Below are positions 9,729 to 27,201 of a DNA stretch of 54,561 nucleotides, one piece after another. Position 1 is the first letter of the stretch. Each line of letters starts with the position of its first letter. The DNA is from Natronospirales bacterium (lineage in GTDB: Bacteria; Pseudomonadota; Gammaproteobacteria; Natronospirales; REEB76). The stretch covers positions 1-54,561 of the forward strand of contig JAJYUH010000004.1 of NCBI GenBank assembly GCA_021792635.1, read 5' to 3'. A model generated the notes under the pieces. The model worked only from the letters and a program-made list of their open reading frames with translations. It did not search any database and was not told where the DNA came from. Both the position numbers and the translations under genes were made by a program.

Positions 9729-12700
9729 ATGGCCGCCATGCCGCAACACAAATCCAACCCCAAAAACAGGCATCTCGACAAAGTTATCACGCTCGCCAAG
9801 AAACAAGACACTTCTCCCATCTTTGAAAAGTTCATCCGGCAGTACTACGACGACATCGCCGAGGAAGACCTGCTGGAACATACGCCACAGAACCTTTACG
9901 GCGCCGCGCGCAGCCACTGGAAATTCGGTCTGGAACGACCCGCCGGTGAGATCAAGGTGCGCGTATTCAACCCCGATGCCAGGAAGGATGGCTGGAAGAG
10001 CCCGCATACCATCATCGAGATGGTGAACGGCGACATGCCGTTCCTGGTAGATTCCACCATCATGACGCTGACCCGCAACGGTATCGGCGTGCATCTTACC
10101 GTACACCCTATCCTGTACCTTGCACGCGATCAGCAGGGTGTCATCACACGCCTGGATGCAGCGGATGAACAGCATCAAACCGGCTTGGTGGAATCCTGGA
10201 TGCATATCGAAGTGGACCATCAGAGCGATGCCGGATTACTGGAGAAACTGGCAGGTGAGCTGCAGTCTGCCATGCGCGATGTACGCGCCACGGTGAATGA
10301 CTGGCACACGATGCGCGACAAGGTGGGCGACGTCTGCACGGCCGTGGACAGGTATCGCGCCTTTCTCGGTGAAGCGGTAGTAAATGAGGGGCAGCGTTTC
10401 CTCGAGTGGCTGGCCAACAACCATTTTGCTTTCCTGGGTTTCCGCGAATACGACCTGGTGGAAGAAAAAGGCGAGGATGTACTCAAAATCGTGGCCGATT
10501 CCGGTCTCGGTATCCTGCGTGACACGCACGCGAAAGTCTCTTCCAGTTTCCTGGTGCTGCCTCGGGATGTGCGCAAGCGCGCTCATACCCGGGAATTCAT
10601 GATCATCACCAAGGCCAATTCCGTCGCCACTGTGCATCGCCCGGGCTATCTCGACTATGTGGGCGTAAAACGCTACAACCAGGAGGGCAATGTCAACGGC
10701 GAATGGCGTTTCCTCGGCCTGTTCACCTCCACCGCCTACAGCCGCAGCCCGCGCGAGATTCCGGTACTGCGGGAGAAAGTGGCGGAAGTCATGCGCCGCT
10801 CGGAACTGCCCTCCAACAGCCACGACCTCAAAGCGTTGCTGCACATCCTGGAAACCTTCCCGCGCGACGAGCTGTTTCAGAGCACCACCGATGAGTTGTT
10901 TGAAGCCGCCATAGGCGTGGTACAACTGCAGGAACGCCAGCGTGTCAAGCTCTTCGTGCGACGCGACAGCTTCGGCCGCTTCTTCTCCTGCCTGGTGTAC
11001 CTGCCGCGGGATCGCTACAACAGCCAGGTACGCGCCAAAACCCAGAAGATTCTGTTCGATGCGCTCAATGGAATAAGCGCGGAACACGATGTACATCTGT
11101 CCGAATCGGCGCTGGCGCGCATCCACATCATTGTACGTACCACACCCTGGAAGCTGCCCAGGTACGACCATGCCGCCCTGGAACAGGAGATCACCCGGGC
11201 AGTGCGTTCCTGGCAGGATGACCTCCGCGAGGCGCTGATTGAGAAATTCGGCGAGGAGCGCGGTCTCAAGCTGTTCGACCGTTATGGCAACCAGTTCCCG
11301 GCCGCCTATCAGGATGAAATCAAGGCCAAAGCGGCGGTCTTCGATATCGAGCAGATTGATGCGCTCAACGGCGACGAAAGTCTGCGCATCACGCTGTACA
11401 AACCCAAAAGCGCGCCCAGCGGATACCTGCGCTTCAAAACCTTTCACCGCGAGCAACCCATACCCATTTCCGACGCGCTGCCGATGTTGGAAAACATGGG
11501 GGTACGGGTCATCAGCGAACGCCCTTACGAACTGGCTCTGCCGGACGAAAGCATCATCTGGGTGCAGGATTTTGAGCTGATTCACTCGGGTGAACTGGGC
11601 GTGGACGATGTCAAGGAAAACTTTCAGGAACAGTTCGCACGCGTGTGGCGCGGCGAGGCTGAGAATGACGGCTTCAATCGCCTGGTGCTTTCCGCCGGCC
11701 TCAACTGGCGGCAGGCCATGTTGTTACGCGCCTACTGCAAGTACCTGCTGCAGACCAGCCTGTCCTTCAGTCCGGCCTACATGGAACGCAGCCTCACCGG
11801 CAATCCGCAGATCGCAACGCTGCTGGTGAAATACTTCGAGGCGCGTCATGACCCGAAAGGTTCCAAGGAGCGCGATGCACTGACCGCGCGTTACACGGCG
11901 GAGATGGACAAGGCCCTGGAATCAGTCTCCAGCCTCGATGAGGATCGCATTCTCAGGAGCTTCCTGAATGCGGTGCGCGCCACGCTGCGCACGAATTATT
12001 TCCAGACGATCGGACGGGGGGAACACAAAGCCTACCTGTCGTTCAAATTCGACCCGTCCCAATTGCCGGAACTGCCATTGCCGCGTCCCATGTATGAAAT
12101 CTGGGTGTACTCGCCGCGCGTCGAGGCGGTACATTTGCGCGGCGGCAAGGTGGCACGCGGCGGCATACGCTGGTCTGACCGGCGCGAGGATTTCCGCACC
12201 GAGGTGCTGGGTCTGATGAAGGCGCAGCAGGTGAAGAATACGGTGATCGTGCCGGTGGGTTCCAAGGGTGGCTTTTATGTGAAACAGCCGCCGCGCAGCG
12301 AGAACCGCGAGGAGCTCATGCAGGAAGTGGTGGATTGCTACCAGACCTTCATGCGCGGATTGCTGGATCTCACCGATAATATCCGTGACGGTAAGATCGT
12401 CCCGCCTGCGCAGGTGGTACGCCACGATGATGATGATCCGTATCTGGTAGTGGCCGCGGACAAGGGTACGGCCACGTTCTCCGACATCGCCAACGGCATT
12501 TCCCGGGAATACAGTTTCTGGCTGGGTGATGCCTTCGCCTCCGGCGGCTCCGCCGGCTACGATCACAAGAAGATGGGCATCACCGCCAAGGGTGCGTGGG
12601 AATCCGTCAAACGCCATTTCCGCGAGATGGGCATCGATACCCAGACCACGGATTTCACCGTGGCGGGTATTGGTGACCTGTCCGGTGACGTGTTCGGTAA

Positions 12701-14561
12701 CGGCATGCTGTTGTCGCGTCATATCCGGCTGATCGCCGCCTTTGACCATCGGCACATCTTTCTGGATCCGAATCCCGATGTGGAAACAAGTTTCAAGGAG
12801 CGTGAGCGGTTGTTCGCCCTGCCGCGTTCCAGTTGGGCGGATTACAACACGACGCTGATTTCACCGGGTGGCGGGGTGTTCCCGCGCTCCGCCAAACTCA
12901 TCAAAATCAGCGCTGAGGTTCGTCAGGCACTCGCCATTGATGCCCATCAACTCGCACCCCAGGAACTGATGCGCGCCATACTCAAGGCGCCGGTGGACCT
13001 GTTCTGGAACGGCGGCATCGGCACCTACGTAAAATCCAGTCGTGAAAGCAACAACGAGGTGGGCGACCGCAGCAATGACGCGCTACGCGTCAATGGCCGC
13101 GACCTGCGTTGCAAGGTGGTGGGTGAAGGCGGCAACCTGGGTTTCACCCAACTGGGCCGCGTGGAGTACGCGCTCAATGGCGGCCGGCTCAACACCGATT
13201 TCATTGATAACTCCGCGGGCGTGGACACTTCCGACCATGAGGTCAACATCAAGATTCTTCTCAACATGGCCGTCAGCGAAGAGCGCCTCACGGAAGCGCG
13301 GCGCAATGTACAGTTGGCGGAGATGACCGATGAGGTAGGTACGCTGGTGCTGCGCGACAATTACATGCAGGCCCAGGCCCTGTCCATCGCCGAATCCCAG
13401 GCACGGGCACGCATCAATGAGCATGCCTACATGATGCGCACGCTGGAACGCAGCGGCCTGCTCAATCGCGCCATCGAGTTCCTGCCATCCGATGACGAAC
13501 TCAAGGAGCGTCGCACCGCCAACCGTGGCCTGACGCGGCCCGAACTGTCCGTGCTGCTGGCCTACAGCAAGATCGCCATCTACAACGCGCTGCTGGCTTC
13601 AGACGTGGCCGAAGATCCTTATCTGGCCAACGAGCTGGAAAATTACTTCCCCACCCCGCTGCGCAAGAAGTACCACGAGTTCATGCCCGGGCACCGGTTG
13701 CGCCGCGAAATCATTGCCACGGCCATCACCAACAGCATGGTGAACCGCATGGGCCCCACATTTGCACACCGTACACAGGAAGAAAGCGGCGCGGATGCCT
13801 CGGCAGTGGCGCGTGCTTACACCATCGCCCGCGAGAGTTTCGACATGGTGAGCACCTGGTCGGCGATTGAGGCTCTGGATAACAAGGTTCCAGCCAGCGT
13901 GCAGCTATCCATGGCGGTACAGGCGTCGCGTTTGCTGAGGCACGCTACCCGCTGGCTGCTGGACCATCTGCCCGGCCGGCTCGACATCGCCGCCACGGTA
14001 CCAGCGTATCGCCCGGGGATCGAAACCCTCATCACGCACATGACCGCGGTGCTGAGCGAAAGCCAGCTGCAAACCTACCACGGCATGATGCAGCAATATA
14101 GCGATGTGGGTGTACCGGAAACGCTCACCCGGCGCATCGCCGCACTGTCGCCTCTGTATGCCGCTCTGGATATGGTGGACGTGGCCCAAGAGACCAAACT
14201 CCCGGTGGACGTGGTGGCGCGCATTTACTTCCACATCGGCAGGGAACTGGATATAGACTGGCTGCGCGGCCAGATCGAAACGCTCGCCGTCGAAGGTCAT
14301 TGGCAGGCGGTGGCGCGCGCCACGCTGCGTGAGGACCTTTATACCCAGCAACGCCGGCTCACGGCCCAGGCGCTTGCCAAAAGCGACGATGCGCATGCCG
14401 CCATGCCGCACCTGAATGCCTGGCTCTCCGAACACGCCTCGCGCATCCAGCATGTGCAGCGGTTACTGGGTGAAATGAAAACTGCGAACATTGCCGATTT
14501 CCCCAGCCTGTCGGTCGCCATGCAGGAAGTCCGCAAACTTGCGCGTATCGGCGCTGGCTGA
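9729..14561 (+). CDS. gdhB: NAD-specific glutamate dehydrogenase, giant (GDH-180) type
   Basis: Oxidatively deaminates glutamate to 2-oxoglutarate and ammonium with NAD+, mainly in the catabolic direction. It is 1610 residues, the usual size of the bacterial large GDH class. A long N-terminal regulatory region with ACT-like segments precedes the catalytic core around residues 780-1200. There, ARGGIRWSDRREDFRTEVLG and VPVGSKGGFYVK are the conserved glutamate/nucleotide-site motifs, and GIGDLSGDVFGNGML belongs to the dinucleotide fold. A helical C-terminal domain follows. It starts 135 bp after E2; a TAAAAT at 9691-9696 could be a -10. A second ATG at 9738 is possible. It fits a cell living on amino acids. 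Confidence 0.95.
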   Translation: MAAMPQHKSNPKNRHLDKVITLAKKQDTSPIFEKFIRQYYDDIAEEDLLEHTPQNLYGAARSHWKFGLERPAGEIKVRVFNPDARKDGWKSPHTIIEMVNGDMPFLVDSTIMTLTRNGIGVHLTVHPILYLARDQQGVITRLDAADEQHQTGLVESWMHIEVDHQSDAGLLEKLAGELQSAMRDVRATVNDWHTMRDKVGDVCTAVDRYRAFLGEAVVNEGQRFLEWLANNHFAFLGFREYDLVEEKGEDVLKIVADSGLGILRDTHAKVSSSFLVLPRDVRKRAHTREFMIITKANSVATVHRPGYLDYVGVKRYNQEGNVNGEWRFLGLFTSTAYSRSPREIPVLREKVAEVMRRSELPSNSHDLKALLHILETFPRDELFQSTTDELFEAAIGVVQLQERQRVKLFVRRDSFGRFFSCLVYLPRDRYNSQVRAKTQKILFDALNGISAEHDVHLSESALARIHIIVRTTPWKLPRYDHAALEQEITRAVRSWQDDLREALIEKFGEERGLKLFDRYGNQFPAAYQDEIKAKAAVFDIEQIDALNGDESLRITLYKPKSAPSGYLRFKTFHREQPIPISDALPMLENMGVRVISERPYELALPDESIIWVQDFELIHSGELGVDDVKENFQEQFARVWRGEAENDGFNRLVLSAGLNWRQAMLLRAYCKYLLQTSLSFSPAYMERSLTGNPQIATLLVKYFEARHDPKGSKERDALTARYTAEMDKALESVSSLDEDRILRSFLNAVRATLRTNYFQTIGRGEHKAYLSFKFDPSQLPELPLPRPMYEIWVYSPRVEAVHLRGGKVARGGIRWSDRREDFRTEVLGLMKAQQVKNTVIVPVGSKGGFYVKQPPRSENREELMQEVVDCYQTFMRGLLDLTDNIRDGKIVPPAQVVRHDDDDPYLVVAADKGTATFSDIANGISREYSFWLGDAFASGGSAGYDHKKMGITAKGAWESVKRHFREMGIDTQTTDFTVAGIGDLSGDVFGNGMLLSRHIRLIAAFDHRHIFLDPNPDVETSFKERERLFALPRSSWADYNTTLISPGGGVFPRSAKLIKISAEVRQALAIDAHQLAPQELMRAILKAPVDLFWNGGIGTYVKSSRESNNEVGDRSNDALRVNGRDLRCKVVGEGGNLGFTQLGRVEYALNGGRLNTDFIDNSAGVDTSDHEVNIKILLNMAVSEERLTEARRNVQLAEMTDEVGTLVLRDNYMQAQALSIAESQARARINEHAYMMRTLERSGLLNRAIEFLPSDDELKERRTANRGLTRPELSVLLAYSKIAIYNALLASDVAEDPYLANELENYFPTPLRKKYHEFMPGHRLRREIIATAITNSMVNRMGPTFAHRTQEESGADASAVARAYTIARESFDMVSTWSAIEALDNKVPASVQLSMAVQASRLLRHATRWLLDHLPGRLDIAATVPAYRPGIETLITHMTAVLSESQLQTYHGMMQQYSDVGVPETLTRRIAALSPLYAALDMVDVAQETKLPVDVVARIYFHIGRELDIDWLRGQIETLAVEGHWQAVARATLREDLYTQQRRLTAQALAKSDDAHAAMPHLNAWLSEHASRIQHVQRLLGEMKTANIADFPSLSVAMQEVRKLARIGAG

Positions 14562-20505: not shown

Positions 20506-20519
20506 TTGATCTACGTCAT
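20506..20519 (+). promoter_or_regulatory. FNR/ANR-type site upstream of the decarboxylase
   Basis: TTGAT-CTAC-GTCAT, with a perfect left half-site and a GTCA-type right half-site (8/10 to TTGATNNNNATCAA). Its centre is about 70 bp upstream of the GTG start. With class II spacing (-41.5) transcription would start near 20554; the matching -10 (CATAGC, 20545-20550) is weak. Confidence 0.55.
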
Positions 20520-20581
20520 AGCGGGCGGCGCTTCACCCCGGCACCATAGCAGTCCATTCATGCCCAACGGGAAAGACCGGC

Positions 20582-22630
20582 GTGCCCCACAAAAGCATTC
20601 ATGCCGACACAGCGCAGGACGGTGACGCTACGCCGGAATTCCTGAATCCCTGCTTCCTCGGCTCCGGCGGTGAAAACAGCGAGGTGTTTGAGCGGGTATT
20701 GCTTGAACTGCTGCGCGACCATGTGTACTGGCGGCGCAACTTCCATCCCGAGGATCCGCCTCCGATACCGATGCTGGCCATGCACGAGCCAGGTTACGTG
20801 GATTTTGTGGACCGCATGCGCACGGAACTCAATACGCTCACTGCGGCACTCAAGCGTTCGGTGCCATTCTTCAATCCTCGCTATCTGGGCCATATGGTAT
20901 CGGACACGCTGCTGCCGGGACTGCTGGCACAGCTCATCACCACGCTCTATAACCCCAACAACGTCTCCCCGGAAGCCGCACCCGTCACCCTCGATCTCGA
21001 GTTGCAGGTGGCTGCACAACTGGCCCGCATGCTCGGCTTTGATACCGATCCCGAACGTATTCCCTGTGCCTGGGGGCATCTCACCTCCGGTGGCACGCTG
21101 GCCAACTACGAGAGCCTGGTCAACCTGCGCACGCTGCGCTGCTATCCGCTGGCGCTCAAGGACGCGTTGCTCGCCACCCGCCAGCCGCTGCAGCTTGACA
21201 TGCCCGGCGGGCAACGGTTGCAGGAACTGGACGACTGGGCCCTGCTCAATCTCCCGCTGGCTGAAATCCTGGCGCTGCCAAAGCGTCTCGCGACCGCGCT
21301 GCGGGTACAGGCCAGCTCTGCCGAAGCGCATATTTTCCGGCTGGCACTGCAGGAAGCACGCGTCGAGACCACCGGTCTCGTGGCCTTTGCGGAGTGTCAT
21401 CCGGCGTGCGCCGAGATGGTGGTGCTCGCGCCGGTGACAGCCCATTATTCCTGGCACAAGGCTGCCCGGGTACTGGGCCTGGGTACCGGACAGTTGCTGC
21501 CGATACCGGTGGACAGTCACATGCGGCTGTCAGTGACGGCGCTGGCGCAGCGTCTTGAAGAGTGTCTCCGCAAAAAGATCCCCGTGCTCGCGGTCATCGC
21601 CGTGCTTGGCACCACCGAATTCGGCACCATTGATCCCCTGCATGACATCGTGGCGCTGCGCGAGCGTTTCCGGGCGTGTGGACTGGAGTTTGCGTTGCAC
21701 GTGGATGCCGCCTGGGGCGGTTATCTTGCCAGCATCTTCCGTGAAGCTGACGGCAGTTTGGCATCCCACGAAACAGTGCATGCCGGCTTCAGCTATTTCC
21801 CCTCCGCTCCCGTGTACGCAAGTTTCGCCGCCCTGAAACAGGCTGATTCTGTCACCGTGGATCCGCACAAGCTCGGTTACCTGCCTTATGGCATCGGCGG
21901 CATCGTGTGGCGGGACAGCCGCATCACGGATTTTCTCGGCGAGAAGGCGCCGTATGTATTCAATCAGGCCGACGAGACTTCACCGGCCAACCAACACACG
22001 CAGCTCGGCCAGTTCATTCTGGAGGGTTCAAAGCCGGGCGCCGCCGCGGCAGCGGCCTGGGTCACCCACAGGGTATTGCCCCTGGACCGCGCGCATCTCG
22101 GCCGGCTGCAATGCCACACCATCCGTGCCAGCGAGTATTTCCATGACCGCCTGCCGCAACTGGCACAACGTCTTGCGGACCGCGCCCGGCTCATAGTGCC
22201 GTTCGAGCCGGATACCAACCTGCTATGCCTCGCGATCAATCCGCAGGGTAATCGTTCACTGGCTGCGCTGAATCGCTTCGGGCAGCGGCTCTATGCCCAT
22301 CTCGGCATTGACCGCACGCAGCCGGTGCAATTGCGGGAATTTTTCAGCTCGCGCACCAGCGTGGGCCGTGACATGCTCGATGCGGAGGATCTCTCGCGGG
22401 TGCTTGCCGCCATCGGCATTGATCCGGGCACGTTCGTTACATTGGTTGAAGATCAGGAGATACAGGCGGACAGCCTGTTTCTGCTGCGCCATACCTTGAT
22501 GAATCCCTGGCTGCTCAAGGAGGTGGCGGGCAGAAACTATCTGGACCGGTATTGTGATTATCTGGAGAAACTGATCTTGGCGGAACTGGATTCTGGATCC
22601 TGGCTTGCGCCGGGCAGTGGCAAGCCCTGA
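20582..22630 (+). CDS. PLP-dependent group II decarboxylase, tyrosine-decarboxylase-like
   Basis: PLP enzyme of 682 residues, probably an aromatic L-amino acid (tyrosine) decarboxylase. The N-terminal half contains YLGHMVSDTLLPG and the WGHLTSGGTLANYESL phosphate-loop region (164-180). HYSWHKAARVLGLG (288-301), HVDAAWGGY (373-381, cofactor-ring Asp375) and VDPHKLGYLPYG with the PLP Schiff-base Lys430 complete the active site. The spacing and the DPHKxGYxPY motif resemble bacterial TyrDC rather than glutamate decarboxylase. A GTG start follows a GGGAAAG-like site. An FNR-type box lies upstream. Its 3' end overlaps the convergent hemerythrin gene by 73 bp. No amino acid antiporter gene is adjacent, unlike typical tyramine operons. 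Confidence 0.85.
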   Translation: MPHKSIHADTAQDGDATPEFLNPCFLGSGGENSEVFERVLLELLRDHVYWRRNFHPEDPPPIPMLAMHEPGYVDFVDRMRTELNTLTAALKRSVPFFNPRYLGHMVSDTLLPGLLAQLITTLYNPNNVSPEAAPVTLDLELQVAAQLARMLGFDTDPERIPCAWGHLTSGGTLANYESLVNLRTLRCYPLALKDALLATRQPLQLDMPGGQRLQELDDWALLNLPLAEILALPKRLATALRVQASSAEAHIFRLALQEARVETTGLVAFAECHPACAEMVVLAPVTAHYSWHKAARVLGLGTGQLLPIPVDSHMRLSVTALAQRLEECLRKKIPVLAVIAVLGTTEFGTIDPLHDIVALRERFRACGLEFALHVDAAWGGYLASIFREADGSLASHETVHAGFSYFPSAPVYASFAALKQADSVTVDPHKLGYLPYGIGGIVWRDSRITDFLGEKAPYVFNQADETSPANQHTQLGQFILEGSKPGAAAAAAWVTHRVLPLDRAHLGRLQCHTIRASEYFHDRLPQLAQRLADRARLIVPFEPDTNLLCLAINPQGNRSLAALNRFGQRLYAHLGIDRTQPVQLREFFSSRTSVGRDMLDAEDLSRVLAAIGIDPGTFVTLVEDQEIQADSLFLLRHTLMNPWLLKEVAGRNYLDRYCDYLEKLILAELDSGSWLAPGSGKP

Positions 22631-23181
22631 TCTGCCGCCTCATGCAGCAGGTAATCGTAAAGATAGCGGTAGCGTTCAGTCACTTTGTTGCCGAACAAGG
22701 GATCTTCAATACCTGCCGACTTGTCACGGACTTCCTTCCAGTCCTTCTGTCTAAGGACTCTCTGCGCCCTCGGAAACAGCACTCTCTCCTCGGCTTCCAC
22801 ATGCTCAGCCTGGGTTTTCAGATACAGCTTGCCCAACTCCAGCAGTTTTGAGCACAGCTCCAGCTTGCCGGCCTGTATTTCAAGCACGAGATTGATGAGC
22901 CGGTCTTCAAGCGCATAAATCTCCTCATGTTGCCGGCGCAGCCGATCCACTTCCTGCTTGACTGACGAGTCGGCAGCAAGCAGTTTCCCGAAAATGAGGT
23001 CTTCCTTGGGGTGGTGCACCATACTGGGAAACTTGCGCATATAGTAAAGGGAATTGGCCAGCAGCACGAAGTCCGGCATCCCCTGCCGTTCCAGCAGATC
23101 AAGCTGCAGGCGCACCAGGATCAGTATGCGCCGCATGTTGGCGTGTTCCCGATACAACTTATCTATGATATTGACAGGCAT
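22558..23181 (-). CDS. Hemerythrin-domain protein
   Basis: A 207-residue helical protein with the His/carboxylate pattern of a non-haem di-iron hemerythrin bundle: REHANM near residue 13, HHPKED near 56, RRQHEE near 84 and QAEHVEAEE near 125. Such cytoplasmic proteins bind O2 or NO or take part in iron-sulfur repair; which applies here cannot be told from sequence. The last 40 residues are disordered and Ser-rich. It is convergent with the decarboxylase gene and overlaps its 3' end by 73 bp, so the two transcripts could form an antisense pair. I found no convincing FNR box in front of it. Confidence 0.87.
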   Translation of the reverse strand: MPVNIIDKLYREHANMRRILILVRLQLDLLERQGMPDFVLLANSLYYMRKFPSMVHHPKEDLIFGKLLAADSSVKQEVDRLRRQHEEIYALEDRLINLVLEIQAGKLELCSKLLELGKLYLKTQAEHVEAEERVLFPRAQRVLRQKDWKEVRDKSAGIEDPLFGNKVTERYRYLYDYLLHEAADQGLPLPGASQDPESSSAKISFSR

Positions 23182-23356
23182 ACTTTGTTCCCGGGCAGTA
23201 GTCGCACCGCCGGACTCAGGCAGTGCGATGCGATACTCTCGTCAATCCTTGCGCGCCTGGCATGACGAAAGCTACCATCCACCGGCACCTGCTGTGTCCC
23301 ATGGCCAGCCTCCGGAACCGCGCAGTCTCCCGGCTACGGAACCCCGTGTTGGGCAC

Positions 23357-24706
23357 TCACCACAGCAGCCACAATGCCAGGTACAGGGTATCGTTATCGG
23401 AGGCGCTGCGTCCCGCGCCGTCGTAGTTGCTGCTGGCACCGTTGAATTTATTGTAGAGCACATACTGGGCGGACAGCTGCACATTCAGGGCCGGCACCCA
23501 GGTCCATTGCATGATCCAGCCGTCGCTGTTGGGGGAACCGGTAGCACTGCCGGTGACCGCGGCGGGCGCGTACAGCAACGGGTCGGTGCTCCCGCTGATA
23601 TGGAAATAGGCCAGCGTGGGACCATAGCTGTTGTTCCAGTAATAGCTGGCATCTGCCTTCCAGTAGTTCAGGTGATCCGTCGGGTTCGACGCCGTGCCGA
23701 GTACCGTGCCGGCATGCCAGTTCTGGTTTTCGTGTATATATATGCCATGCAGGGTCAAGGAATCACTGCCCATAATGCGCTGGTACTGGGTGTCCATCCC
23801 CACATCGGTAAAATCATTGGTGGGGCCACTCAGCGGGGTGCCGGTGCCGGGGAATATGTGTGCCGACATGCCGATGGCGCCGATCTCCCAGTCGTTCTGA
23901 CTGCTTCCGCCGCCTTCCCAGGCATGTTCGTAAGCCAGGCGCCAGTAGGGAGCCAGGCCCGAGATGATATTGGAAGAGGCGCTGGTGTAAGGCTGGGCGA
24001 CCCCCAACTGACTGGAACGGTACAGACTGATCTCGCCGTACAGCGAATTGTTCATCCACACGTAGGCGCCCAGTCCCGCCACCTGCTGGTTGAAGGATGA
24101 CACCATCACCGGGACAGCAGTGGGGGTCGTTGCGGCCGCGGAACTCAGGAACGGAAAACCCCAGTCCGGGGTGCTGTTCCAGACATCCTGTACGCTGGGG
24201 TCGTTGTTGGCGGTCAGCCCCCAAACGATGCTGTTGCCGCCCCAGTTGGCATCGCGGGCATAGCGGATATCGGTATTATCCATGCTGAAGTGGTCCGAAT
24301 CCGAGGTGTAGGTGATCTGCGCAAAGGCGCCCATATGCTCGGCGATGGCGCCCGCATAAAAAAAGCTCAATTGCTGCGGGAAGGCCGCACTGCTGTTCTG
24401 TGCGCCCGGCTGGGTTGTGCGGGTGACCGTGTCCGAGAGCAGCATCATGGCCGACAACGGCGGGAACTTGTCTATGTTGAGTTTGGCGCTGCCGCCATGC
24501 AGCTTGTTCGGCCCGAGCACGTAACCGTGCAGCTTGAAGTACCGGCCGAAGGCGGTGAGCTGCGGCGGCACCGTATGGCAGGCGGCGCAGGACATGCCCG
24601 TCTGCCTGGCAAAGCTCGGCACCGCCTGCGCCGGCGAGGACCAAAGGGGCACGGTCGCAATGGCAACGGGAACGATGATCAGTCGGACAAGACGCTTGCA
24701 GTACAT
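23357..24706 (-). CDS. Exported monohaem cytochrome c fused to a barrel-like domain (Cyc2-like)
   Basis: The protein is 449 residues from the ATG at 24704-24706, which has GGGAGGGT just upstream. A signal peptide (about 1-28, SSPAQA) is followed at once by a short cytochrome domain: FARQTGMSCAACHTVPPQL with one CxxCH haem site, then AFGRYFKLHGY. The remaining ~380 residues are rich in Tyr/Trp/Asn/Gly/Ser with alternating polar and aromatic stretches, and end in LYLALWLLW, an aromatic C-terminus as in outer-membrane porins. Small N-terminal cytochrome plus barrel is the architecture of the Cyc2 porin-cytochromes. Electron exchange across the outer membrane is therefore a candidate role, not a demonstrated one. 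A strong FNR-type box lies upstream. Confidence 0.7.
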   Translation of the reverse strand: MYCKRLVRLIIVPVAIATVPLWSSPAQAVPSFARQTGMSCAACHTVPPQLTAFGRYFKLHGYVLGPNKLHGGSAKLNIDKFPPLSAMMLLSDTVTRTTQPGAQNSSAAFPQQLSFFYAGAIAEHMGAFAQITYTSDSDHFSMDNTDIRYARDANWGGNSIVWGLTANNDPSVQDVWNSTPDWGFPFLSSAAATTPTAVPVMVSSFNQQVAGLGAYVWMNNSLYGEISLYRSSQLGVAQPYTSASSNIISGLAPYWRLAYEHAWEGGGSSQNDWEIGAIGMSAHIFPGTGTPLSGPTNDFTDVGMDTQYQRIMGSDSLTLHGIYIHENQNWHAGTVLGTASNPTDHLNYWKADASYYWNNSYGPTLAYFHISGSTDPLLYAPAAVTGSATGSPNSDGWIMQWTWVPALNVQLSAQYVLYNKFNGASSNYDGAGRSASDNDTLYLALWLLW

Positions 24707-24772
24707 ATCCACCCTCCCAATACAGCCGGATGTCAAACCCAGGCGCGGTCCGCCCACGATTTACCCACACCA

Positions 24773-24778
24773 GCATAA
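24773..24778 (-). promoter_or_regulatory. -10 box for the cytochrome-barrel gene
   Basis: On the minus strand TATGCT (24778 to 24773) gives a predicted transcription start near 24766. This places the FNR-type site centred at 24805.5 about 40 bp upstream, the geometry of a class II FNR-activated promoter. Confidence 0.55.
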
Positions 24779-24798
24779 ACTACCCCGGTGGGGACACC

Positions 24799-24812
24799 AT
24801 GATATAGATCAA
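24799..24812 (-). promoter_or_regulatory. FNR/ANR-type site for the cytochrome-barrel gene
   Basis: ATGAT-ATAG-ATCAA matches 9 of 10 consensus positions of TTGATNNNNATCAA. It lies between the divergent cytochrome-barrel gene and hemN, centred at 24805.5, about 40 bp before the predicted leftward start site. An FNR-family gene that could bind it is encoded 1.6 kb away. Confidence 0.72.
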
Positions 24813-24878
24813 CTTTCCGGCCCGGATCTCCTCGCAGGCAAGGCTGGCGGCGGGCCCGGTGCCGCCCGAGCCCAATCC

Positions 24879-24892
24879 TTGACCTGGATCAG
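24879..24892 (+). promoter_or_regulatory. FNR/ANR-type site for hemN
   Basis: TTGAC-CTGG-ATCAG matches 8 of 10 positions and is itself nearly palindromic. Its centre at 24885.5 is about 62 bp before the hemN GTG. Class II spacing predicts a start near 24927, with TAGCGT (24915-24920) as a weak -10. Confidence 0.6.
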
Positions 24893-24947
24893 TTCCCGCC
24901 GCAGCGTTCCGGTGTAGCGTGCCGAAAGACAATCCTGAGCAACCTCC

Positions 24948-26342
24948 GTGGATACATCCGTTCATTTCAATGCCGAGCTGCTTCGCCGCTACGACCTGCG
25001 TGGGCCGCGCTATACCTCTTACCCGACGGCGGCGCAATTTCTTGATGGCTTCGATCCCATGGAATATGCGGAGGCGGCACGCAGCAGCAATGATGACCCC
25101 ATCCCCGCCCCGCTGTCTCTGTACGTGCATATCCCTTTCTGCCGGAGTCCCTGTTATTACTGCGCCTGCACCCGCGTCATCACCCGCGATCACGCCAAGG
25201 CGCAAGCCTATCTGTCGCGCCTGTACCGCGAGATCGAACTGCAGGCGGCATTGTTCGATCGCGACCGCACCGTACGGCAACTGCACTTGGGGGGGGGTAC
25301 ACCGACCTTCCTGACGCTCGCGGAACTGCAGGAACTGATGGACGTACTGGACCGGTTTTTCACGTTGTCACGCAACCCGCGGCGGGAATTCGGCGTCGAG
25401 GTGGATCCGCGCACGGTGACCCCGGAAACCGTACAGGGACTCGCGGAACTCGGTTTTAACCGCATCAGCCTGGGTGTCCAGGATTTCAACCCGCGGGTGC
25501 AGCAGGCCGTCAATCGCATCCAGCCACAGGAACATACGCTGAATCTCATCGGTGCGGCGCGCCGCGCCGGCTTCACATCCGTCAACGTGGATCTCATCTA
25601 TGGGCTGCCCGACCAGACGCTGGAAACCTTCAGTGAGACCCTGGACACGGTTATTGCGGTCCGGCCCGATCGCCTTGCCATTTACAACTATGCACACATG
25701 CCGCGGTTGTTCAAGACGCAGCGGCTGATTGCCGAAAGCACCTTACCCGACGCTGATACCAAGCTGCGCCTGCTCGGCCTCACGATCGAAAAACTGACGG
25801 CTGCGGGCTATGAATATATCGGCATGGATCACTTCGCCCTGCCCTCCGACCCGCTGGTGGATGCCCTGCACCGAGGTACGTTGCAGCGTAATTTCCAGGG
25901 TTACTCCACCGGCGCGGAATGCGACACAGTGGGCTTGGGCATGAGCGCCATCGGTTTTATTCGCGATACCTACAGTCAGAACGCCAAAAACCTGCAGGAA
26001 TATTCCGATGCCCTGGATAGCGGACAGTTGGCGATTCGCCGTGGCCTGGTCATGAATGAAGATGATCGTCTGCGACGTGCCTTGTTGCAGCAGCTTACCT
26101 GCCAAGGGCGGGTGTCGTTTCCGTTATATGAAAAGCATTTCAGCATCAATTTCCGGGAATGCTTCGCCGCTGAACTGCGGGCACTGGAACCCCTCACTGC
26201 CGATGGTCTGGTGAAGATGGGATATGACGGCTTCGAGCTGACGCCCGCGGGCCGTCTGCTGATGCGCGCCGTAGCCATGGTGTTTGATGCCTACTTGCGG
26301 CAACCGCAGGCCCAGCCGGCGCGGTTTTCAAAGGTCATATAG
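24948..26342 (+). CDS. hemN: Oxygen-independent coproporphyrinogen III oxidase
   Basis: Radical SAM enzyme that decarboxylates coproporphyrinogen III to protoporphyrinogen IX without O2, giving haem under anoxia. It is 464 residues. Near residue 60, PFCRSPCYYCAC carries the CxxxCxxC cluster motif plus the extra HemN cysteine. HLGGGTPTFL is the SAM-binding GGGTP motif; its codons create a run of nine or more Gs at about 25289-25297. YTSYPTAAQF near the N-terminus and the C-terminal HemN domain are standard. The start is GTG. It is followed 94 bp later by fnr in the same direction, as in the pseudomonad hemN-anr pair. Confidence 0.95.
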   Translation: MDTSVHFNAELLRRYDLRGPRYTSYPTAAQFLDGFDPMEYAEAARSSNDDPIPAPLSLYVHIPFCRSPCYYCACTRVITRDHAKAQAYLSRLYREIELQAALFDRDRTVRQLHLGGGTPTFLTLAELQELMDVLDRFFTLSRNPRREFGVEVDPRTVTPETVQGLAELGFNRISLGVQDFNPRVQQAVNRIQPQEHTLNLIGAARRAGFTSVNVDLIYGLPDQTLETFSETLDTVIAVRPDRLAIYNYAHMPRLFKTQRLIAESTLPDADTKLRLLGLTIEKLTAAGYEYIGMDHFALPSDPLVDALHRGTLQRNFQGYSTGAECDTVGLGMSAIGFIRDTYSQNAKNLQEYSDALDSGQLAIRRGLVMNEDDRLRRALLQQLTCQGRVSFPLYEKHFSINFRECFAAELRALEPLTADGLVKMGYDGFELTPAGRLLMRAVAMVFDAYLRQPQAQPARFSKVI

Positions 26343-26436
26343 CCAAGGCCGGCAAAACACGCATCACACCTGCTGCCAGCGGCCGGTATTGTCAGCGGTG
26401 GTCAATTGTCATCGCATCGCAGCGTAGGGTAGTGTA

Positions 26437-27201
26437 GTGTCCGACGCCCCAGGAAACGCCGTCATGGCCCAGCCGGCAGCCGAAGCCCGCCTTGATTTAC
26501 AGCGCCTGCGCAAGGTCTGCAGCAGTTGTTCTCTTGCGGAATTATGCCTGCCCATGGGCCTGAACCGCCAGGATCTGCAGCGCCTCGACTCCATCGTCCA
26601 GCCCACCGGCCCCCTGCATGCGGGTGCACACCTGTACCGGGTGGATACACCGTTTCATGCGCTCTACGCGGTCCGCTCGGGCTGTCTCAAGACCTACATC
26701 GTGGATGACACCGGCCGTGAGCAGGTGCTCGGCTTCCACCTGCCGGGGGAACTGGTGGGCCTCGACGCCATCTACCCGGACCGCCACCAGTGTAACGCGA
26801 TGGCCCTGGATACGGTGACGGTGTGCGCGTTGCAATATACGGATATTGCCGCACTCACCCTGCAGGTGCCGAGCCTGCAGAAACAGATGTTTCGGCTGAT
26901 GAGCAAGGATATCGCCAGCTCCCATGCCCTGGCCGGTGACTTCACCGCCGAGGAACGCCTGGCCGCCTTCCTCATGAGCCTGTCCCGCCGCCTGCAGCTA
27001 CGCGGCTATTCCGCCGCGGAGTTCATCCTCGCCATGACGCGCCGCGACATCGCCAATTACCTGCGGCTCGCCACCGAGACCGTGAGCCGCGTATTCGCAA
27101 AATTTCAGGAGGATGGCCTCATTGAAGTCGAGCGCCGCGATGTGCACATCCTCGACCTGGAACGATTGGGCGCGCTGTGCCGCAGCGTGCCAAAAATCTA
27201 G
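26437..27201 (+). CDS. fnr: FNR/ANR-family oxygen-sensing transcription regulator
   Basis: Crp/Fnr-family activator that assembles an oxygen-labile [4Fe-4S] cluster and then dimerises on TTGATNNNNATCAA sites. It is 254 residues. All four cluster cysteines are present: Cys28, Cys31 and Cys37 in CSSCSLAELC and Cys130 in TVTVCAL. This makes it FNR/ANR rather than the cysteine-poor DNR type. The effector domain is followed by a dimer helix and an HTH with recognition helix ETVSRVF (214-220), whose Glu, Ser and Arg contact the FNR half-site. The start is GTG at 26437, with ATG 26464 as alternative. Three matching boxes lie 1.5-6 kb upstream. Confidence 0.93.
   Translation: MSDAPGNAVMAQPAAEARLDLQRLRKVCSSCSLAELCLPMGLNRQDLQRLDSIVQPTGPLHAGAHLYRVDTPFHALYAVRSGCLKTYIVDDTGREQVLGFHLPGELVGLDAIYPDRHQCNAMALDTVTVCALQYTDIAALTLQVPSLQKQMFRLMSKDIASSHALAGDFTAEERLAAFLMSLSRRLQLRGYSAAEFILAMTRRDIANYLRLATETVSRVFAKFQEDGLIEVERRDVHILDLERLGALCRSVPKI

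Follow-up and report, generated by a model that had tools for sequence, protein, structure and literature searches.

A candidate FNR-activated low-oxygen island with a cyc2-family gene, hemN and a tyrosine-decarboxylase-like gene in a Natronospirales bacterium

The DNA analysed here, referred to as the window, is a 54,561-nucleotide part of contig C13 in the 2.71 Mb, 94% complete genome of a Natronospirales bacterium (G000). Within 6.7 kb of it lie genes for a pyridoxal-phosphate (PLP)-dependent decarboxylase, a hemerythrin-domain protein, a cytochrome of the Cyc2 family, the oxygen-independent coproporphyrinogen III oxidase HemN and a regulator of the FNR/ANR type, together with three sites of the kind bound by FNR. 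In E. coli and Pseudomonas, the FNR/ANR regulon consists of a four-cysteine regulator, TTGAT-N4-ATCAA sites at class II spacing and targets that include hemN. Sites were scored as mismatches over the ten defined positions of TTGATNNNNATCAA. The features are as follows.

20506–20519, plus strand: FNR-type site in the decarboxylase promoter, TTGATCTACGTCAT, two mismatches (8/10)
20542–20547, plus strand: −10-like hexamer CACCAT of the decarboxylase promoter, +23 from the site end; the transcription start is inferred
20582–22630, plus strand: PLP-dependent decarboxylase, tyrosine-decarboxylase-like, 682 residues, GTG start (PF00282, 97 bits, cut-off 27)
22558–23181, minus strand: hemerythrin-domain protein, 207 residues, downstream of cyc2 on the same strand (PF01814, 42.2 bits, cut-off 25.3)
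23357–24706, minus strand: cyc2-family gene, N-terminal monohaem cytochrome and 16-strand porin, 449 residues, ATG start (assigned from motifs, model and profile match)
24772–24777, minus strand: −10 hexamer TATGCT of the cyc2 promoter, +22 from the site end
24799–24812, minus strand: FNR-type site of cyc2, TTGATCTATATCAT on the minus strand, one mismatch (9/10)
24879–24892, plus strand: FNR-type site of hemN, TTGACCTGGATCAG, two mismatches (8/10)
24915–24920, plus strand: −10-like hexamer TAGCGT of hemN, +23 from the site end
24948–26342, plus strand: hemN, oxygen-independent coproporphyrinogen III oxidase (TIGR00538, 571.6 bits, above the cut-off of 325)
26437–27201, plus strand: FNR/ANR-type regulator with C-x2-C-x5-C and a fourth cysteine (NF008365, 225.2 bits, below the cut-off of 228)

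All five genes and all three sites stand where a first-pass annotation of the window had placed them, and recomputation gave the same scores for the second and third sites and 8/10 for the first, which had been left unscored. The start of the cytochrome gene was corrected to the ATG at 24706. Its site had been put about 40 bp before the predicted transcription start; TATGCT implies a start near 24765, so that the centre of the site, 24805.5, falls at about −41. At their 3′ ends the decarboxylase and hemerythrin genes share 73 nt (22558–22630) in a tail-to-tail overlap, and overlapping 3′ ends recur in the related genomes G005, G010, G009 and G004.

A lack of conservation in relatives had been named at the outset as grounds for abandoning the idea of an oxygen-responsive island, and comparison of 12 genomes of the family gave the opposite result. 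The cyc2 gene is present in 11 of the 12 and was not found in seven other genomes of the order that were searched. A site with at most two mismatches precedes 12 of 13 cyc2 promoters of the genus, about 82–105 bp before the gene start, all seven promoters of the decarboxylase orthologues found in the genus, and hemN or its leading gene in all ten genomes with a hemN orthologue. Seven of these last ten sites stand before hemN itself and three before the hemerythrin gene, which in G008, G002 and G003 precedes hemN on the same strand. Overall, 29 of 30 family promoters carry such a site. The start codons of relatives were partly projected from alignments, and the distances are accurate to about 30 bp. 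The 13 cyc2 promoters include two paralogues of this genome on contig C28 and exclude that of G001 (sister genus), the first copy of G006 (start masked by N) and the partial locus L014. When the promoters are anchored on the site, pairwise identity is 0.83–0.85 over the ten core positions and 0.30–0.37 over 60 bases on each side.

The cyc2 gene lies beside hemN–fnr in the divergent layout of the window in G000, G010 and G005 and in line behind fnr in G002, G003, G004, G008 and G009; in G006, 8,001 bases of N precede cyc2 (L120), so that hemN and fnr cannot be read there. The decarboxylase gene is on a separate contig from cyc2 in the six other genomes that carry an orthologue. In G005 this separation is probably a mere contig break, because a hemerythrin gene and a Vps10-like gene flank the decarboxylase as they do in the window.

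The spacing between site and −10 region provides a second line of evidence. Sites were chosen by motif and position without use of the −10 region, the one choice being at G010, where the two-mismatch site aligned with the others was taken over an overlapping one-mismatch site 6 bases upstream. A hexamer of the form xAxxxT starts +22 to +24 past the site in 27 of 30 family promoters and in eight of 11 promoters from eleven genomes of other families, or 35 of 41 together, compared with a mean of 4.8 and a maximum of 15 of the 41 for three-offset windows at other positions. Among them, the decarboxylase promoters have it at +23 in 7/7 cases and the cyc2 promoters of the genus at +22 to +24 in 10/13. 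The family promoters are related and hence not independent; the 11 outside promoters exclude L222, L223 and two sites of G382, which lie farther from the gene in question, and no xAxxxT is found at +22 to +24 in L222 or L223. FNR acting as a class II activator contacts RNA polymerase from a site centred at −41.5, and the observed spacing, with starts read from −10-like hexamers, would fit this geometry. The sites are judged to be far above chance because both motif and spacing are conserved in relatives.

Counts of the motif alone are less telling. The window holds 27 sites with at most two mismatches against 14.0 expected in shuffled sequence (0 of 100 shuffles reached 27), and the whole genome holds 76 with at most one. 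The first 50 of these (perfect sites first, then in contig order), less the window sites at 24799 and 12937, were inspected in context: 33 of the 48 lie within genes and 15 are intergenic, eight of them within 150 bp of a start. With 8/48 at promoters, the other outcome named in advance as fatal, many high-scoring sites at unrelated promoters genome-wide, did not materialize. Three of the eight precede genes for nirK (TIGR02376, 333 bits, cut-off 296), pseudoazurin (113.7 bits, cut-off 109.85) and a qNor-type (NorB-type) nitric oxide reductase; the other five precede a Rieske/radical-SAM pair, a ferredoxin/CRP-family pair, a CopD-like gene (below cut-off), a carB-type gene and a small frame. 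The theme common to the clear promoter-site genes is predicted nitrite and nitric oxide reduction. A single 8/10 site would carry little weight in this genome; it is conservation that carries the case. The only perfect TTGATNNNNATCAA of the window (12937–12950) lies inside a long frame (9729–14561) and was set aside.

Similar promoters occur beyond the family. In 369 genomes drawn over the class, 63 had a Cyc2 match, many at the haem end only, and 61 of these lie outside the family. Loci were obtained for 28 of the 61, leaving out second copies, and 27 could be scored (L190 has too little upstream sequence): eight of the 27 cyc2 promoters have a site with at most one mismatch, three of them perfect, against an expectation of about 0.3, whether estimated from the same loci or from resampled promoters. 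In G165, of another family, cyc2, a cytochrome c gene, hemN and a four-cysteine fnr lie on one strand behind a perfect site (TTGATCTAGATCAA) and TATCAT, divergent from a ccmA-like gene, ccmB, a ccmC-like gene, ccmE and ccmF. An FNR-family gene is found within about 3 kb of Cyc2 in five of the 28 outside genomes (G165, G150, G262, G173 and G306), and the cysteine pattern is seen in the proteins of G165, G150 and G262. On a Cyc2 tree (two of 71 rows dropped as too short and without the haem motif), sites with at most one mismatch fall on several gammaproteobacterial branches and on none of the acidobacterial clade. In a label test against the two-mismatch rows only, 132 of 500 shuffles were as low, and no count of site gains was therefore drawn from the tree. 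Long decarboxylase homologues outside the family number eight among the 369 genomes. In G017, from another family of the order, a hemN–decarboxylase–fnr row is led by TTGACACAGGTCAA (two mismatches) with TAAGCT at +23; G030 has a one-mismatch site before the decarboxylase, G014 a two-mismatch site close to an uncertain start, and G382 two one-mismatch sites 200–270 bases before the aligned part. No close site was seen in G250, G346 or G050, and the G135 locus ends at a contig edge.

The first-pass annotation had described the cytochrome as a putative outer-membrane electron carrier, and motifs, modelled fold and profile match now allow it to be identified as Cyc2. The published criteria are a length of at least 365 residues, a single CXXCH near the N-terminus, AXPXFAR[Q/K][T/Y] before the haem site and PXL after it (PMC8406198). 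The window protein has 448 residues translated from codon 2 and one CAACH, and reads AVPSFARQT-GMS-CAACH-TVP-PQL; its N-terminus, a possible signal peptide, appears by eye to be hydrophobic, ending in AQA before VPSF. An AlphaFold2 model (pLDDT 84.8, pTM 0.83) places 16 long strands behind a small helical domain and matches the porins OmpF, OmpC, OprB and OprP. A sequence search for a relative of solved structure found none up to an E-value of 1. Alignment of the family profile with a Chlorobium Cyc2 profile (21 sequences built on Chlorobium sp. N1, C. ferrooxidans included) using hhalign gave a probability of 99.5% and an E-value of 2 × 10−23 over 362 columns. The protein thus resembles the Cyc2 of the iron oxidizers Mariprofundus, Acidithiobacillus and Chlorobium in its single CXXCH, both flanking motifs, 16-strand porin (here modelled) and profile homology, but differs in the grouping of its gene with hemN and fnr behind FNR-type sites and in a host where RuBisCO was not found. 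In Acidithiobacillus, cyc2 leads the rus operon, which is treated under RegB/RegA control in PMC5506826, whereas the window gene has an FNR-type site.

Two further Cyc2 copies lie on contig C28. The third copy has genes for a monohaem and a dihaem c-type cytochrome behind it and ctaG, ccmB and a ccmA-like ATPase gene in front, and copy 2 has a ccmC-like gene, ccmF and ccmH on its other side. The cytochromes behind the third copy and the ctaG upstream resemble the rus operon order cyc2-cyc1-…-ctaG (PMC10654088); unlike that operon, the copy is embedded in ccm genes, and no cox or rusticyanin gene was seen in 20 kb (L116). Physical association of cyc2 with hemN, fnr and genes for haem or cytochrome c maturation recurs among the genomes compared. 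In G009, cydAB precede hemN–fnr–cyc2, and G004 has the same two families at that place. A truncated hemerythrin match stands behind the second Cyc2 copy, and short pieces of both survive in G007 (L012 1127–1390; L017), which points to a cyc2–hemerythrin segment that has been duplicated and is decaying.

The description of the decarboxylase as tyrosine-decarboxylase-like holds as a likeness (351 bits to TIGR03811), but not as membership of that Enterococcus-type family, for which the cut-off is 905; filing it there was rejected. Its best match of solved structure is the L. brevis tyrosine decarboxylase (5hsi; PMC4904194). The two are homologous over most of their length and share the PLP lysine region, HYSW, DPHK and the Tyr398 position, while the position of Lys240 is alanine in the window protein. 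No transporter gene was seen beside the decarboxylase. We would guess that the enzyme acts on an aromatic amino acid in a proton-consuming reaction.

Taken together, these results make it probable that the island is an FNR-activated low-oxygen unit joining Cyc2, hemN and the PLP decarboxylase; the original suggestion of an oxygen-responsive island tied together by FNR sites is supported by their conservation, with binding predicted from sequence. As oxygen falls, the FNR-type protein (26437–27201) would keep its iron–sulfur cluster, and it, rather than another CRP-family protein, would bind the conserved sites before cyc2, hemN and the decarboxylase gene and switch on all three at low oxygen. 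The hemerythrin gene would perhaps be read through from cyc2, since no terminator-like site is listed between them on the minus strand. Where oxygen is scarce enough for dissolved Fe(II) to persist, Cyc2 would then feed electrons taken from that iron, or from some other external donor, into periplasmic c-type cytochromes, with HemN supplying haem. The electrons may go on to oxygen, or to the nitrite and nitric oxide reductases whose genes carry similar sites; besides NorB, the genome holds a second COX1-family protein. The decarboxylase would remove CO2 from its aromatic substrate, using up protons. We propose more tentatively, as an extension that could hold but that we lean slightly against, that Cyc2 belongs to the FNR regulon across several gammaproteobacterial families, so that one [4Fe-4S] sensor would start outer-membrane iron oxidation together with oxygen-independent haem synthesis, cytochrome c maturation, nitrite and nitric oxide reduction and an acid-consuming decarboxylase, and Cyc2 would be made where Fe(II) outlasts oxygen.

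Several observations weigh against control of the island by FNR and a role in iron oxidation. The thirteenth cyc2 promoter of the genus, that of G002, has three mismatches, and the sister genus (G001) has no convincing site at cyc2. At +22 to +24, six of the 41 promoters show no −10-like hexamer: those of G306, G350 and G014 and, within the genus, the cyc2 promoters of three third copies. In the window, no site belongs to the hemerythrin gene itself, the best between −160 and −35 having five mismatches. Outside the family, 19 of the 27 gammaproteobacterial cyc2 promoters are without a site of at most one mismatch, as are all 38 promoters scored from records not labelled Gammaproteobacteria, mostly Acidobacteria, of which eight have at most two mismatches against 2.5 expected. 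These 38 were drawn from 46 loci, with L020–L023, L048, L050, L064 and L065 set aside (L065 is not gammaproteobacterial); among the 38, one carries only the label Proteobacteria, and some share a genome. Filing of the regulator under NF008365 was rejected by 3 bits (225.2 against 228), and it is therefore described as FNR-type only. The same motif also surrounds a second CRP-family regulator. The function of distant Cyc2 homologues is uncertain (Keffer et al., PMC8406198), and no RuBisCO large chain was found in the 94% complete genome. This counts against a classic Calvin-cycle iron autotroph; growth on Fe(II) would instead be mixotrophic, unless Cyc2 has a different role.

These last two points, together with the occurrence of Cyc2 homologues in many acidobacterial records, favour a reading in which FNR does control the gene and its Cyc2-like product, instead of oxidizing iron, serves other donors, electron export or redox sensing. 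The window protein has the sequence hallmarks of Cyc2, however, and the c-type cytochromes behind one paralogue, with ctaG upstream, recall the cyc2-cyc1 rus operons (PMC10654088); we consider this reading unlikely, but far from negligible.

It is also conceivable, if distinctly improbable, that the sites are read mainly by the second CRP-family regulator (contig C5; L136 7165–8312) and that the island answers to nitric oxide rather than oxygen. This protein appears DNR/NnrR-like and reaches no family cut-off. Its gene and a ferredoxin gene transcribed divergently from it have a perfect FNR-type site in common; a further site lies about 1 kb away, and a CopD-like gene nearby has one. FNR and DNR share a motif, and similar sites precede nirK, pseudoazurin and the qNor-type gene. 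On the other hand, the regulator of the island has VCSSCSLAELC and HQC, the three N-terminal cysteines plus a fourth that are the hallmark of FNR-type oxygen sensors, and its best matches of solved structure are FNR-type regulators. Orthologues of the C5 regulator (67–100% identity) were found in only five of the 12 genomes. One of these, G011 (97% complete), retains the C5 regulator but has no fnr, cyc2 or full-length decarboxylase and only a 24-residue trace of hemN. Conversely, G004, G007, G009 and G010 have the sites and fnr with no detectable C5 orthologue, although at 52–87% completeness this absence is soft, and fnr of G007 is a contig-end piece. Linkage to the island was seen for fnr and not for the C5 regulator gene, both within the genus and in two further families. 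This distribution across the 12 genomes makes control by the C5 protein unlikely.

That only hemN, perhaps with fnr, is a true target and cyc2 and the decarboxylase are bystanders would agree with the well known control of hemN by FNR/ANR, but is very hard to reconcile with the sites that both genes have of their own, also where the stretch read contains no hemN (L012, L018 and L068–L070). That the three sites are chance matches near unrelated genes can be dismissed as far as sequence comparison goes, for however common the motif is (27 sites in 54.6 kb against 14 expected, 33 of the 48 inspected genome sites inside genes), 29 of 30 promoters keep it amid diverged flanks and with fixed −10 spacing.

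Compared with the known FNR/ANR regulon, the island proposed here to be FNR-activated shares the type of regulator, the sites, the spacing and hemN; it departs from that regulon in having Cyc2 and a tyrosine-decarboxylase-like enzyme among its predicted direct targets. No description of FNR control of cyc2 was found in the literature searched, which largely lacked subscription papers. In the text available, FNR is mentioned alongside cyc2 for the E. coli ccm/nap operon, as ferredoxin-NADP oxidoreductase and in a reference title, none of these concerning cyc2 control (PMC7236192, PMC8125076 and PMC10937671 were among the papers covered), and it appears once in the accessible part of PMC5506826, within a reference; a maize paper that names both was set aside on its title. 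A link between tyrosine decarboxylase and FNR was not found among the titles of the same literature, nor was switching of Cyc2 outside Acidithiobacillus described in the portions available. Cyc2 is a leading candidate marker of microbial iron oxidation, and some family members take electrons from dissolved iron. A conserved FNR-type promoter forecasts that oxygen limitation, and not iron alone, turns cyc2 on, and promoters thus offer a way to judge uncertain Cyc2 homologues in metagenomes. Such a promoter also suggests that iron oxidation may be tied to nitrite and nitric oxide reduction in uncultured bacteria.

Three further observations come from other genomes. Upstream of acidobacterial Cyc2 genes, the palindrome GTGAT-N4-ATCAC occurs at about −213 to −237 from the projected start in L037, L045, L046, L047 and L061 and at −110 in L052, as if another CRP-family regulator controlled those genes. 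In G329, the neighbourhood of a Cyc2 gene that has a perfect FNR-type site includes a 1769-residue frame with 57 CXXCH motifs (L220 8873–14182). In two other families, perfect FNR-type sites stand immediately upstream of peptidase U32 family genes close to the decarboxylase (L258 3045–3058 and L259 6660–6673).

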